DNA of 64,000 nucleotides from Diprion similis (lineage: Eukaryota > Arthropoda > Insecta > Hymenoptera > Diprionidae), in assembly GCF_021155765.1 (NCBI RefSeq), contig NC_060108.1:12125425-12189424 (forward strand), given 5' to 3'. Below are positions 5,436 through 63,884 of this stretch, in pieces. The position numbers and the translations under genes were made by a program. Below the pieces are notes generated by a model. It worked only from the letters and a program-made list of their open reading frames with translations, ran no database searches and was not told the origin of the DNA. Within the stretch, counting starts at the first letter, position 1. The number at the start of each line of letters is the position of its first letter.

Positions 5436-8400
5436 CTAAGGGCTCGGCTTATCCATTCCAATTAATTCTTCAAAAAGGCTATTTCTTCCTTCAATTCTTT
5501 CCTCTATAGTCTTTACTGCAAATCTCAAAGTTGCTGTAGCAAGATCTCCAACTGTCCAGTGTCTATCAACCAATACCCTGCTAACTGTGTCCAACTAAAA
5601 AAAGTTATATTAATCAATAAATTATGTCAAATTTTTAAACTTCAACAATACCTGCCACACTCATTTTTTCATTTCACCTTTGATAAGCTAGAGTGTCCTG
5701 ATGTGTAGTAGATTAGTCGAGGAACACCTGCAAGCGACGCCGCCAGCCATTGTATGACTAGTTTTAGTTGATGATCACCTTTTAATCTTGAACCGCAACC
5801 CCAATTACCAGTAACAACTGGCAATAAGCCACCGGCTTGCGGACTGGTTTCTCTGGGCACCTGAAATTTGAAATAGAGAGAAATTCACGTTTCCACTGGG
5901 ATTTTATGGTGAATGAAACAAGAACACTAAATTAAATTTGGTTGAGCAATTGTTGAAACAGTGATGGAATAATTTCGGAATTTCCTATCAACACAAATTG
6001 AGGTCGCATGCATCAAAATCAGTGAAAATTTTTAAAAAATTTGAGTTCACTCAGAATTGTTTGCATGTATATTGTAAAATGGTAGATCCAATGACTATGT
6101 GTATTTAAAATTTGTTACGAAATAGAGCTTAAGTTCTGTATTTTTAAACCCTACATTGATCATTCCGCTGTAAATTTATTAGCCGTTGTATTTAAAATTT
6201 CACTTAGCAATATTTTACTCTACATGCTTACAATTTGAATACCACCTCGAATAATTTTGAAGAGATTAGCCTGAGAACATCCGTGTAGCAACATGTTCTG
6301 TAGGTATATTAACAAAATAGGCTGTAATATATGATTAATAAACATTGGTAACGCATATCAGTTATCAAAACATCAAGATTTTATGAAAAACGAAGAAAAA
6401 CACATATAAGATAGAATAAGAGACAGATGTTTTAGTTATTGTAAGTTTGTCAAGTCAGCATACAAAAGTGAATTAATTTAAAGTTACGAAGCATAACATC
6501 AATTAGTTATTGATATAGTGTAAAATAAACAGAGTCTAGCAATTTCAGACATTGATTAGTCAATGGGAAAGATATTTATGCTCTAATAGCAATTGCTATT
6601 AAAACAGACTGTTATTTTACCATTATACATAGTACACATTCGTCTATTTTAGCATAAATTAAAAGTCTGGCTGATCGATCATCACTTAACAATCACCACT
6701 CATCGTACATTGATTACTGGTGTCGCAATTTTGCTCTTAGGTAACACCTTCGTGGCTTCCTGTGTGCACGATTCTTGTCCTAAACTTTGTGATACACATT
6801 CGACTCGGTAATTTTCTGCTAATTTATCTTCTTCATTCATCGCTTTGTCCGTATTGATTTCTGCTGCTATATTTAGCGGCAGGGATATTGTTGCCTGGTC
6901 ATCGACCAGGGTCTGTCTCACTTCAGATGTAAAAGAAATCACCCATAGCTTCCTGCGCTGGGATGATCGCACGTCTTTGGCAACACTCGGATCTTCATTC
7001 AGAGCATCTTCGTAATTTGTGTGGTACTCACCTTCGGAAACCTGCAGATTTTTAACTCTGGAAGAATTGCTAGTGGTTTTCTGCGACGTTATATAGTGAT
7101 ATTGATGTGTTAGTAACATACCCTCATCATGTTGATGAATTTATGCATGGAATCTCGTTATGACATAGATTCTTAGTTGGCTCATTTATTCTTTGTTTAT
7201 TCGTAAATCTGTCTCTGATTCTATATTATGTGAAACCAAGCTTTGCTCATGCTTTTTTCATGATTATTTATTCAATTGCACCCAAAACTGTCTCTTTAAT
7301 GTTTACACGAGACTCTAACTCTATAGTCGGAAGCAATAATATATCCCTGGTGAAAAAGTTTCATCTGCAACTCTTCAGAAAGAGAATGTGTCGGATCAGA
7401 TCTTCCAGATTTTCGATAAGATTCTGAGAAATGTTTTCACCAGAGACAGCCACACTAATATAATAATCGTCCTACCGATTGTTGTCTTTTGTGCTTATGA
7501 CGTGCAAGCTCTAAACTCAAGCTTCTGACTGCTAAAGCAAGTTTGTGCCTCTGTTGTACATCTTCGGAACCAACTAAAGCTTGCGGCTCTCCCTCCTGGA
7601 CAGGAACTCCAGCAAATGATTCGCTGAGAGCTCTCTTGAGTAGGGAACCAGCGAATCTCACAACAGCTCTATCTCTGGCATCCAGTTCGCGGTTTTCATC
7701 AGCAACTATTGGATCCTCTAGCCACTTGGACAGTTGTTCATAAACTTCTTCAAGTTCTGATGAAAATTCTGATGGTATGATTTTTGATCAAACGAAGACA
7801 GTGAGATTGGCTGACAAATTTTTTTAGTCGTTAATTTCCTACCTGAGCTATACTCTGTACTGAAACTGTACTTGCTACTGGCATTAGTGTCTCTTCTCTG
7901 CAACATTGGATGTTGACTTTGGCGAAATCTTCCAAGCCACTTTTGCTCAGCCTCCAATGATTCTTTCAAGAAGTCTTCATCCACTGTGTCATCTCTCAGG
8001 ACAAAACCTCTCGATCCGCCTCTTTTGACTCTGAACAAGAAACCATAAAAAGGTGATAAACAATTTTCATCAACAACTCATTACGTCAATAATACAGAAA
8101 GTCTTGTAGCCAAAGCAATCATACTTAATGTCTTCATCGCCAACATGACTCCCAGCCACACTTATACCAACAGCATAACTACTCTCTGCTGATGAAATTG
8201 AAGAAGTTGTTCCCGTTGCTGTACTTTCGCGTCTTAGTGCGTCTTTCAGCCTTTGAGCAAATGTTCCTCTACGCTCCAGTGTGTCTAACTGCGTGCTGTA
8301 TCGCCTTGTTAATTTTTGTTCCTCGTCTTCCTCTGATTAACATTAATCAGCATTTAACTCAGAGTTTTCACGGAATTTTCCTAGTATAGGATTTAAAAAT

Positions 8401-11400
8401 ATTTTCCCTTTACCTTGTTCCTCTTCAATAGTTTCTTTTGCACTGTGAAAACTATCAGTACTCTGGCTGTTGCAACTGCTGTAAACTGACATTTGACCCA
8501 GACACTTTCTCGTCACAGGTAAAACCTCACCGCTTGAACCAAGAACGATAAATCGACCTCTCCTATTGTTGGAGCCTGTTGTTTTAACAGGACTTTGCGA
8601 CCGGATGGATTTACCGTTAGGTCTTGTTCGCACCTCCATCTCATCCGATATGATTGATTCCTTATTTATTGGTGCTAGGAAACATGAATTACGATTGATA
8701 TTTTTTTAACGTTATTAAGACTTATTTCCTGATACTTCAATCAGTGATGATGTTGATTCGATTTTACCTTTTATGTTATTATTACATGTTTCTATGGGCT
8801 TTTCTTCAGCCTCAGGTGGGGTACTGCTGAAACTTTCTCCGATGGGCGACAGCCTTCGTGCTCCTGGATCTGGTTCTAATTTAACAGGATCGGTGGGGCT
8901 TGTGGGAACGTGTCTTTGCCTGAATCCCAACAAAGATTTGTTCATTTCTCGCAAGACATTGTCTTCCTCATACTGCGTCAATGGCATAGTTGAATAGTCC
9001 TCTGCATCCATACAGCATATTGTTACCTATAATAAGTTAACTGAATCATATACACAATTTTTTATGTCAGTTTGCAGTCTTGATTAGCATGTAGTTCGAA
9101 CTTTGATCAATCTATGCCGTGCTTACCGTATTTGGGTTTGGTATACTCTCAAAGGTTGATCTATATTTCGGGTCTCCTATTCTAGAAATATGTCTTGCTC
9201 CTTCTACTATCAGAATTTCATTGTCTTCCAATGCCTCCACTGATAGCAATGTAGCCAAAAGTTCTGGATGCGTTGCCATCTGAGACAGTAATTTCAACCT
9301 TGTTATGTACACACGCAACTTTTACAGCATTGACAACAGGTGAACACAAGCTCTAAAAGCATTCTTGAGGAACTTATCGTTTTGAAGAAATTGCTTACTT
9401 GAACACTTTCTTGATTTACTTCGTTGCTTAGTACTCCGCCGCCAAGTCGTGCGCTGGTGAAGCATACATGTAACAAATTGGCTTCAGCCCTTTCAACTCT
9501 CCCTTCGTGACGAATGGTCAGAGGGCAAAGAGGAACACTGCTCTCTAGCCAGTCTTCAATCGTCAGCCACTGTTTTGAAGTCATCACCTGAAGAGGATTG
9601 CAAGCCGTGAATCATGCGTCATGGATCATGCGTTTCATCGGTGACTCATCCAATTTCTCTATTACAAAACCAAACAGCGTCTTGTGACTTTATTTTACTC
9701 GAATTTTATTAATCACATTTCATTAAAAGGGTAAACCAGTTTTCACTGTTTATTAATCACATAATGAACATCTGATCCTACGGTAAGGCGTCAAACTATT
9801 TTCACCACATTCTTGAGACTTTTTCTGAAGTAGAGCCTAACGAGAAGATAAGTAAAAAGTTCTCGTTCAAACCTGTCTGGAAACTACGAGTTTTCCATCC
9901 AATGCCGATTCCTCATCCAAGAAATCAAAGTATGCAAATATGCTTCTCAATTTCGCCTTCTGACTGTTTCTGATAAACCACAAGAAATAAATTAGTATTA
10001 GCAATTCATTCAAATCCGCATCGCTGTTACAGAAAATATATAAATATTATATGTATATACATACAATTCAACTCACATGTGAAGGTGTTTGAAGAAATTA
10101 GTAAAGTTAAAATCTTGTAATGTGGGGTGAGTTTTTTTTGTCCTTTTCGGGTAAGTTGAAAAAAATGCATTCGCTATAAGTGATGAAACAAACTTGTAAC
10201 TGTACTCAATACTGTCAGCTGAAAAGAGAATATAATATCAGGTCAATATTTATCGGCAAACTACTGGGAAAATTGTTTACAAAAACAGTTTATGCACTTT
10301 TCATGTGAATTGACTCACTTTGTTGCTGTAGGCTGAAATGTAATCCTTGTGGAGGTTTGGTGGACTTGAGAGCCTTTGCAAGTTGGACCAGCCGAGGTAT
10401 TGTTTTGGTGAAAACCTTTTCTCGTTCCTCAAGTGTCAAGTCTTCGTCAATAAATTTCGCCAGTTCACTAAACAAGTTTGGGTCCTGCACATCCTCGTCA
10501 GGATCCAAACTTATGCTAAAAAATTTACAAATTATGCATATTTTTCAACTTGGATTTTCAGCTACAATTTATTGTATCAGGACTATACAGATATTATTTG
10601 CTATAAAAATTGAGAATTTTGTCCTTGACCTGAACAAAGTTTTAAATAGGCATAAGTAACCCACTTTTTTTGGCAGTGGCCTTTGCTGTGCTATACAACA
10701 TTTAGGAGGTTGTTGGGGGCTTGATGAAAAAATCTTCACTTGCGCTGTTTACTTATTTTATCACTTGCATGAGTTAAAATATATTGACTGGACTAACTTT
10801 ATCATGAACCGAATGCAAAATTAGGCATAACATAATACAGAAGCCACAGAAAGTTTACTTTTAATAAGTTCATTGCCAAATATAGTTTAAATACCCTGCT
10901 GGAAAAGTTTCATAGGACATGAAATATTGTGATTGAATATTATAAAACGGGATTCAGAAACACCATAGACATCATTTTGTATCGTGTTTTTAAATCCTAT
11001 TTCATGATATTCTTTAATATCTAGTTGTGAGTTTATTGTGTGGAATCGTATTGAAACTGAAGTGGGAAAGCTGAATATTGAAATTTTTGATCCTCGAAAG
11101 AAAATCCACGATGATAAAACCGGACCTCAATAATCGGTACTGTTTAATCACTGAGCTTATGATTTACTAAATTAAGTAAAAGGCTGCAAACGTGTATAAT
11201 TCGATTCAATTGAAGTTTATTCAAAATGTTGTTATTGATAATAATGTCTACTAATACGCTCGGTGACAAGATTTGCAGTTCCCACGATATCTTGAAAACG
11301 GCCCAATAGGTTGATTTCAAATTATGATGTTGAATATAGTAACTTTATTGAAAACGATTCACGCTGAGGAAAAACCGTTATTACGCAATTTTTGAACTGT

Positions 11401-12058
11401 TTGAAATTACGTGAACAATAAAATAAAAGAAAATATAATCACATTATGAAATCCTAGTTCCTCAAAAATCATTTTAAAAATAAGATAATGGTGATTTTGT
11501 TCTCAACGCATCGTTACGATAACGTCACTTACTTCAACCTCGTTCCAAATTTGTAAACAGTATTCTTAGATAGTCCATTCTCTCCGTCGCGATCCAATTT
11601 TTTCTTCTGTTACTTTTTACAAACAAGGTGGCAACCGTTTGGAGTTGAAATTTAATTCGGCATCAAAAATTTACGACTTTTTAAAATTTAATTGAAAAAA
11701 AGAAAATATGATAATTACAGAAAAAGATGGTTGTGGTGAGGAGAATAGAATACTCAAGAATGTCGTCTTCAAATTTGAAGCGAAATGAATATGAATAATA
11801 CGAGAGCAATAAAGGTAGAGAAAAATCACATTCACTGACATCGCGAACATCAATTATGTGTATATCCAACATTAAAGTCATGGTATTATGTCAACAAACA
11901 TGTAGCTATAAAGCCGATACCACGTACTTGCACATGTCGTGTAGTCGGTGCATCGCATCTAAGAGTTGTTCAGAATTTTTAGCATCTGCAACTCGGTCCA
12001 GCTGTTTAACAACTGCCGCCCACCACGGCAGATCACAAGGTAGCATGACTAGCGCCAT
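5436..12058 (-). CDS. PARG: Poly(ADP-ribose) glycohydrolase homologue, probably catalytically impaired
   Basis: Fourteen minus-strand coding exons: 12058-11928, 10515-10319, 10218-10077, 9969-9873, 9587-9399, 9279-9127, 9026-8768, 8674-8414, 8332-8125, 8030-7843, 7768-7476, 7080-6922, 5860-5678, 5594-5436. They stay in phase throughout and give about 872 aa. PARG landmarks in order: an accessory helical region (SLIANAFFSTYP, near residue 125), ARLGGGVLSNEVNQES (near 240), THPELLATLLSVEALEDNEI, CCMDAEDYS, REMNKSLLGF, then TGNWGCG near 776 and WTVGDL. The family hydrolyses poly(ADP-ribose) after DNA damage. The signature GGG-X6-8-QEE reads GGG...QES here, losing the second Glu that acts as general acid. 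Residues about 339-759 form a Ser/Glu-rich, low-complexity insertion within the catalytic fold. The donor at 6922 is a weak GAA|GTGAGA; reading through it gives an alternative end at 6700. The ATG at 12058 follows a likely acceptor, so a 5' UTR exon lies upstream. Confidence 0.83.
6700..7080 (-). CDS. Alternative 3' terminal exon of the PARG-like gene
   Basis: The exon beginning at 7080 (after the CAG acceptor 7083-7081) stays open to a TGA at 6702-6700. If the internal donor at 6922 is not used, the protein ends ...PVINVR at 832 aa and lacks the GNWGCG and TVGDL segments that complete the PARG macrodomain. Another strong-looking donor inside it (AAG|GTGAGT, in phase 1, near 7036) does not match the phase of the 5860 exon. 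Which isoform is made cannot be settled from sequence. Confidence 0.45.
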   Translation of the reverse strand, partial: KTTSNSSRVKNLQVSEGEYHTNYEDALNEDPSVAKDVRSSQRRKLWVISFTSEVRQTLVDDQATISLPLNIAAEINTDKAMNEEDKLAENYRVECVSQSLGQESCTQEATKVLPKSKIATPVINVR

Positions 12059-23400: not shown

Positions 23401-25132
23401 TTTGGATTCATTCAAGGTAGATAACTACTTACAAAGTCATTTTCTCTATCATATCGTAATCTGTTGCAATAGAAAATGAAAAAATTTGTTGTATTTTCTT
23501 TCTAGTTCTTCGTATCCTTGTATGGTCACAAGCTTCCAGTGATATGCATGGATATATCGAGTGATTCTACTCTAATTGCAACTGGCTCTGCAGATCGGAA
23601 TGTTAAAATTTGGGGTCTTGACTTTGGGGACTGTCACAAATCGCTATTCGCTCATGACGATTCAGTTACTGGTCTTGCGTTTGTTCCAAAAACACACTAC
23701 TTTTTCACTTGTGGCAAAGATGGAAAGGTCAAACAGTGGGATGCTGATATTTTCCAAAAAATTATCACCTTACAGGTAAGACATTTGTTAAAATACGACT
23801 ATCCTTGACTAAGTCATTTTAAATTCCTCTTGTTACTTTTATGTAGGGTCACTCAGGTGAAGCCTGGAACTGTGCAGTTTCTCCAAATGGCATTTATGTT
23901 TCATCATGTGGATCGGACAAAGTCGTTAGATTATATGAACGTTCGGCAGAACCTTTAGTTCTGGAAGACGAAGCTGAGGAGGAGAGAGAAAAGCTGGACA
24001 ATGATTTAGCTACGGGAGAAACAAGTGCGGTTCAAGGCCAGAAGGCACAATTATTACCCTCAAGGAAAACTGTAAACAGTGAAAAAGCGGTAATAAAAAA
24101 TAACAGTTATTGGCAGTGCGTTTTGCGCAACTGTGGAAAGTGGAAGGGAAAAATTAAAAAAAAAAAAATATTTCAGGCCGAGTTAATACTAGAATGTCTG
24201 GAAGTATCCAAACAGTATGAAGAACAATTGGCAAATGTCGTACCTGAGACTGCTTTACCTCCTGTGCCACCCCTGATGCAGGCTTATTCCTGTTCTACTA
24301 CAGAAGATTTTCTATTGGAAACGGTAAAACGCGTTCGAGCAAGGTAAAGTGCCAGGAAAGTTTTTGTTATAATTATCCCGAAAATTTGTTACTGTTCACA
24401 TTCTGCATATACCCATGCAAGGCAATGGCTTCATGTTATAATATAAATGTTAACATTTGGTACTTATTAGTGAATTTCAAAAGCTGCAAATTATGATTTG
24501 AATAGTTCAACATGCCTCATAAAGTAATAGAACTAACTTGAGTGTAGTTGTCAGAATCTTTTTCCTTATACGAATTGCTTGTAGAAACTAACTAAATCAA
24601 ACTCAGTATTGGAGCTTTTTAGATCAAGGTTTTATATTTAACTCGTTATTTTAATCTCATTTTTAGTGAGTTGGAAGAAGCTTTGTTGCTTTTACCGTAC
24701 TCAGCAGCATGTGAAATTCTAAAGCTCCTGCCAAAACTTTTAGAGGGTGATTATCAGGCTGAGTTAGTATCAAGATTGACTATTAGCCTGGTTCGGGCTC
24801 ATCATGGGCCGATTGTGACAAGTAAAGAATTGTTGACAACGTTGGAGACGATAAAAAATCTGAGTCTCGAAAGGATTACCACGTTAAGGGTATAACTTTC
24901 GCTATTATTGACTATGAAGTGTAAAAGTCTGCATTAGATAAAATTCACTTGTTCTTTATCATTGCAGGATACAGTCGGATACAACTTGTATGGCATGGCG
25001 TACACGCAACGTGCTATCGAAGAACGTGAGGGTGTGCAGTTGTTCAAAGACGCGACAAAGTCGCGGAAACAGAAAAACAAAGTGAGACGAAACAAGGAAA
25101 GGGCCTTGAAAAGGGCAATTATGACTCTATAA
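20439..25132 (+). CDS. WDR3: WD repeat-containing protein 3 (WDR3/Utp12), complete
   Basis: Coding exons: 20439-20609, 20690-20899, 21222-21419, 21540-21707, 21892-22097, 22195-22333, 22462-22652, 22806-23001, 23189-23416, 23506-23775, 23847-24089, 24177-24343, 24667-24889, 24968-25132. They join to 925 codons (924 aa; human 943). The N-terminus [12 protein letters not shown] is diagnostic. WD repeats run through residues about 20-700 as two propellers (for example [47 protein letters not shown]). A Utp12 domain spans about 741-890, and a Lys/Arg-rich tail ([20 protein letters not shown]) fits nucleolar location. The protein belongs to the UTP-B complex of the small-subunit processome and acts in U3-dependent 18S rRNA processing. 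The linker near residue 310 is also strongly basic. Confidence 0.97.

Positions 25133-41380: not shown

Positions 41381-46387
<5,007 letters not shown>

Positions 46388-48322: not shown

Positions 48323-57200
<8,878 letters not shown>

Positions 57201-59052: not shown

Positions 59053-63884
<4,832 letters not shown>

Follow-up and report, generated by a model that had tools for sequence, protein, structure and literature searches.

A PARG-like gene of Diprion similis with an altered catalytic centre and a possible relationship to SPHKAP/AKAP11-type scaffolds

What does a PARG-like protein do when the QEE of its catalytic signature reads QES? The question is raised by a gene in a 64,000-nucleotide stretch of Diprion similis DNA (hereafter the window), which is part of contig C4 in the genome that we searched (269 Mb, 60 contigs). 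Judged from sequence, we favour, with some confidence, the reading that its product is a scaffold derived from PARG, without catalysis and akin to vertebrate SPHKAP/AKAP11, proteins that keep protein kinase A (PKA) close to the endoplasmic reticulum (ER).

Gene model and domain architecture

The exon at 9587-9399, to which the original prediction had assigned the QES, is one of 14 exons of a PARG-like gene. It is bordered by AG and GT, it reads ...ARLGGGVLSNEVNQESVQ on the minus strand, and the codons CAA GAA AGT at 9413-9405 agree with that assignment. The gene had also been described as intact and spliced in phase, and this holds: the exons join into a single 943-aa open frame on the minus strand (12058-5436), in which all introns are GT-AG. 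Stops number 58 and 74 in the two remaining frames of the spliced sequence; in 500 shuffles of its bases they averaged 59, with a minimum of 40. The coding sequence has a GC content of 43.6%, compared with 31.3% for the introns, and contains no N. The parts of the gene, and the neighbouring frames scanned, are as follows.

11928..12058, minus strand: exon 1, aa 1-44; predicted start ATG; GT donor, reading frame
10319..10515, minus strand: exon 2, aa 44-110; the PARG_cat_N helical domain begins; AG/GT borders, Pfam
10077..10218, minus strand: exon 3, aa 110-157; PARG_cat_N; borders, Pfam
9873..9969, minus strand: exon 4, aa 157-189; borders, Pfam
9399..9587, minus strand: exon 5, aa 190-252; start of PARG_cat_C, GGG-X7-QES; borders, Pfam, alignment. 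Aligned residues Cys231 (human D737), Ser234 (N740) and Ser250 (E756)
9443-9435, minus strand: GGC GGC GGA, the GGG loop; codons read in exon 5
9405..9407, minus strand: AGT codon, Ser250, at the place of the general acid Glu756; alignment
9127..9279, minus strand: exon 6, aa 253-303; macro fold, with ISRIGDPKYR for the Tyr-clasp loop; alignment
8768..9026, minus strand: exon 7, aa 304-390; the first macro part ends (Pfam to aa 346) and the insert begins
8414..8674, minus strand: exon 8, aa 390-477; insert; splice borders
8433..8453, minus strand: phospho-FFAT-like motif SFHSAKE, aa 464-470, with an acidic stretch after it; comparison with motifs in the available part of PMC3261905
8125..8332, minus strand: exon 9, aa 477-546; insert; splice borders
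7843..8030, minus strand: exon 10, aa 546-609; insert; splice borders
7476..7768, minus strand: exon 11, aa 609-706; insert with the candidate PKA-anchoring helix
7614..7664, minus strand: candidate amphipathic helix for binding PKA R subunits, VVRFAGSLLKRALSESF, aa 644-660; a motif match only
6709..7080, minus strand: exon 12, aa 707-830; the insert ends; splice borders
5678..5860, minus strand: exon 13, aa 831-891; second macro part, GNWGCG; F875 replaced by Leu, F902 by Ser
5436..5594, minus strand: exon 14, aa 892-943 and stop; part of the AKAP_110-like stretch (aa 859-917), tail NSLFEELIGMD
1279-1698 plus, 23847-24344 plus, 44189-44677 plus, 51989-52549 minus, 63138-63605 minus: neighbouring open frames scanned, five of the nine listed

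Pfam places PARG_cat_N at aa 72-175 (62.3 bits, E 6.4e-17) and PARG_cat_C in two stretches (139 bits, E 2.2e-40), both over their cut-offs, and by these scores the match to the PARG family far exceeds chance. The PARG_cat_C match is interrupted by a 484-aa insert, aa 347-830, whose boundaries were set in this analysis. When aa 190-342 were used to scan genome-contig and viral-contig collections, no relative came up.

Exon 12 (7080-6700, minus strand) stays open past its donor for two codons before a stop (V R stop). A transcript retaining this intron would encode a protein lacking the final PARG strands and the tail that resembles AKAP_110. The five neighbouring frames are ordinary and comprise a JAB/MPN protein, a WDR3-like protein (31 bits, below its cut-off), an MCM helicase, an ion-transport channel and an ABC transporter.

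Active-site positions and a canonical PARG in the same genome

A search for a second, canonical PARG, proposed along with the original prediction, found a QEE gene on contig C1 (7865000-7874900). Its model has 10 exons, at 6226-3073 within that stretch, and encodes 816 aa, with one weak donor. The protein carries GGG-X7-QEE, YSNYEGYS and NWGCGAF, and reaches 296 and 130 bits against the PARG models. A long, charged C-terminal extension continues for more than 200 aa past its PARG domain and ends in KKISDFFT. Searched with two parts of the window protein, the genome yielded, among the best candidates listed, no PARG-fold gene besides that of the window and the one on C1.

We aligned the window protein, with its insert removed, to the C1 PARG and to a human-type PARG sequence, which we take to be human PARG. 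The human numbering was fixed by setting QEE as 754-756. The window protein is identical to the human sequence at 114 of 337 aligned positions, and the C1 PARG at 190 of 360. Its signature reads GGG-X7-QES rather than GGG-X6-8-QEE. Relative to human PARG, six active-site residues are replaced: D737C, N740S and E756S in exon 5, Y792I in exon 6, and F875L and F902S in exon 13. Kept are E727, the glycines 744-746, Q754, E755, N869 and GNWGCG. Y795 aligns with a tyrosine that adjoins a two-residue insertion, where the alignment is uncertain. The second glutamate of QEE is thus Ser250, encoded by AGT, and the Tyr-clasp loop, YSEYTGYA in the human-type sequence and YSNYEGYS in the C1 PARG, reads ISRIGDPKYR; the original prediction had noted a change at both places.

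With this numbering, D737, N740, Y792, Y795, N869, F875 and F902 match the residue types given in the available part of PMC3519477. There, E756 is the catalytic acid/base and E755 holds the 2''-OH, N740 contacts the 3''-OH, F902 stacks on the adenine, and D737 is structural and possibly a proton-relay residue; mutating E755, E756 or D737 abolished activity. Given these roles of the replaced residues, loss of hydrolysis is well supported, and hydrolysis by the window protein is very unlikely. The pseudoenzyme reading of the original prediction stands as the best one, with the correction that the active-site positions changed number six rather than one.

Resemblance to SPHKAP and AKAP11

In the C-terminus, aa 859-917 align to positions 607-665 of 690 in the AKAP_110 profile. 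Searched as a piece, the C-terminus gives 18.4 and 18.7 bits (E 5.9e-4) for this match, and a search with the whole protein gives 13.9 bits; all lie below the Pfam cut-off of 25 bits. None of four canonical PARG queries (one full-length, three C-terminal pieces) matched AKAP_110 up to E 10, within HMMER's filters. Searching the genome with AKAP_110 returned nothing and missed the window gene too, so it is uninformative on other AKAPs.

For direct comparison we used provisional letters of the human SPHKAP C-terminus and of other parts of SPHKAP and AKAP11, which serve as a lead rather than a record. This provisional SPHKAP C-terminus scores 41.9 bits with AKAP_110 and only 12.2 bits with PARG_cat_C. 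In local alignments to it, the window protein scored 120, the C1 PARG 59 and human PARG 58, and none of 300 shuffles reached any of these scores; by these provisional letters, the C-terminus is nearer to SPHKAP in the window protein than in the two canonical PARGs. Against the C1 and human PARGs themselves, the window C-terminus scored 126 and 121. Taken with the 120 for provisional SPHKAP, these values place it between the two groups. Among solved structures, the C-terminus matched 15 PARG sequences with E values up to 0.0086; the four other matches had E values of 0.35 or more.

We also considered a link between the N-terminal half of the macro fold and the vertebrate AKAPs. The first macro half aligned pairwise to the provisional SPHKAP N-terminus with z 7.3 (0 of 300 shuffles), compared with z 2.2 (14 of 300) for the C1 PARG and z 0.9 (49 of 300) for human PARG. 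Profiles built from the window protein and PARGs ranked the provisional SPHKAP and AKAP11 N-termini no better than shuffles. This link, a hypothesis of our own, has the pairwise score in its favour but failed the profile test, and is tentative at best. With AKAP_110 below its cut-off and the N-terminal profile result null, the protein is filed neither as a PARG enzyme nor as an AKAP_110 member.

Pfam found no match better than E 2.5 for the whole insert, within which SFHSAKE (aa 464-470) is followed by EEE-rich sequence. The phospho-FFAT-like motif occurred in 38 of 5000 shuffled inserts, and in 3 of 5000 together with the acidic tail, the patterns having been set after seeing the sequence. 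The candidate helix at aa 644-660 fits the PKA-anchoring pattern. The loose form of this pattern turned up in 1855 of 5000 shuffles of the insert and twice within the PARG domains; being frequent by chance, it makes the match weak. A strict form, written after seeing the sequence, occurred in 35 of 5000. Among 270 proline-free windows of the insert, the one at aa 644 ranks 27th by hydrophobic moment and an overlapping one at aa 642 ranks 5th. Against solved structures, the helix region matched just a designed helix bundle (E 0.01) and one other chain (E 1.9).

The available part of PMC3261905 describes the FFAT-like motifs DFVTA-E in AKAP220 and DFLTASE in AKAP110, the latter giving weak VAP targeting in yeast, and that of PMC10460453 reports that SPHKAP F212 and T214 are needed for co-localisation with VAP. 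The order of a phospho-FFAT-like motif (F-x-[ST]-A-x-E), a candidate anchoring part and a PARG-like C-terminus equals that of SPHKAP, whose phospho-FFAT lies at F212/T214 and whose RI anchoring lies within aa 820-1658 (PMC11377751, PMC10460453, as far as available). The 484-aa insert and the SPHKAP/AKAP11 resemblance, both missed by the original prediction, together suggest a PKA/ER scaffold. In such a scaffold, the macro fold would act as a structural or ligand-binding platform, and the insert would contact VAP on the ER through the phospho-FFAT motif and PKA regulatory subunits through the amphipathic helix. PKA may thus be held at ER contact sites, with ADP-ribose or PAR possibly as the regulating ligand. 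Profile matches in the genome number two for RIIa-type D/D, two for MSP domains and three for PARP, so the partners needed exist in principle. The PARP catalytic-domain matches lie on contigs C3, C12 and C10, and poly(ADP-ribose) machinery is probably present.

Alternative readings and significance

Two readings concern the catalytic change itself. A single codon separates QES from QEE, and the change could stem from pseudogene decay or from a mistake in sequencing or assembly at that codon. Besides this codon, however, five more active-site residues are changed, of which two share its exon and three lie in two further exons, and a one-base error cannot explain QES in a protein with six such replacements. 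The 943 open codons, 14 exons and GT-AG borders also argue against decay, as do the coding and intron GC contents and the lack of N. With multiple active-site changes in an intact frame, we set both error and pseudogene aside as hardly credible. Macro folds can be active in the absence of a QEE motif, and E755 is kept, which would be compatible with a hydrolase of changed chemistry or substrate that uses another residue as its general acid. We regard this as highly improbable: E756, D737 and N740 are all replaced, as is the Tyr-clasp loop, and glycine at the last signature glutamate blocks the activity of Arabidopsis PARG1 (PMC4287526, available part).

The idea of the original prediction, a PARG-derived reader of ADP-ribose or PAR, would leave the insert with a role unrelated to PKA or VAP. 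The fold is kept, along with E727, Q754, E755, N869 and the glycine loop, and two of four aligned PARG sequences carry QEN, indicating that proteins with a changed general acid have been crystallised. In bovine PARG, the equivalents of D737N and E755N kill catalysis with no significant loss of ligand-analogue binding (PMC3519477, available part), and the PARG domains of human AKAPs have been proposed to have evolved to bind PAR-modified proteins (PMC11377751, available part). Set against this are the replacements of N740, Y792, F875 and F902, which contact ribose or adenine or belong to the phosphate loop, and the weaker binding of ADP-ribose by TcPARG with alanine at the first glutamate, so the pocket can be sensitive (residue roles and the TcPARG result from the same part of PMC3519477). 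This reading also leaves the AKAP_110 resemblance unexplained, and we consider it rather unlikely. The most likely reading remains that the window protein works like an SPHKAP/AKAP11-type scaffold on a dead PARG fold.

Known systems share parts of this architecture. In the available part of PMC11377751 (2024), the C-termini of human SPHKAP, AKAP3, AKAP4 and AKAP11 (AKAP220) are PARG macro-domain homologues, and these AKAPs seem to have lost the N-terminal part of the PARG catalytic domain. The window protein resembles this group in its PARG-fold C-terminus with a weak AKAP_110 match, and possibly in the phospho-FFAT-like motif upstream and the candidate helix between motif and C-terminus. Unlike them, it retains the helical domain of PARG and, of the macro fold, the half with GGG...QE; its AKAP_110 score is under the cut-off, its PKA binding is putative, and its 943 aa compare with 1658 in mouse SPHKAP (PMC10460453, available part). 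With canonical PARGs, human and C1, it shares both Pfam PARG domains and the kept residues listed above, and it differs from them in the six replacements and the insert. Arabidopsis PARG2 is likewise an inactive paralogue beside an active PARG, with a broken signature (GGL-X7-QEE) and no detected activity. It comes from a plant, however, and has a different signature residue changed, and the available part of PMC4287526 mentions no AKAP-like insert. PARG_cat and AKAP_110 occur in one gene in the 'PARG_homolog' g7740, apparently from a cyclostome and known from one table row alone (CGG08 of PMC11788884). PARG has often been duplicated, and an imperfect signature is seen in many of the bacterial-type PARGs that eukaryotes carry (PMC4245714, available part). 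The open-licence literature searched, judged mostly from listings, named neither an animal pseudo-PARG nor an invertebrate SPHKAP/AKAP11, nor did our searches of it turn up a complete PARG fold carrying both QES and an AKAP-like insert. Inactive PARGs and PARG-derived AKAPs are each already known, and their combination looks new.

The only link between PARG and SPHKAP/AKAP11 that we found in print is the remote C-terminal similarity in PMC11377751. A protein that combines a complete PARG fold with a resemblance to AKAP_110 would connect the two families by sequence, offer a path by which an enzyme became a kinase scaffold, and make ADP-ribose binding by these AKAPs testable. In a possible, though doubtful, extension, the gene would preserve the form from which SPHKAP, AKAP11, AKAP3 and AKAP4 all descend: an entire PARG paralogue in which catalysis was lost, a long insert in the macro fold brought contacts to VAP and PKA, and binding of ADP-ribose or PAR was retained. 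If so, PAR signalling and cAMP/PKA anchoring would meet in one protein.
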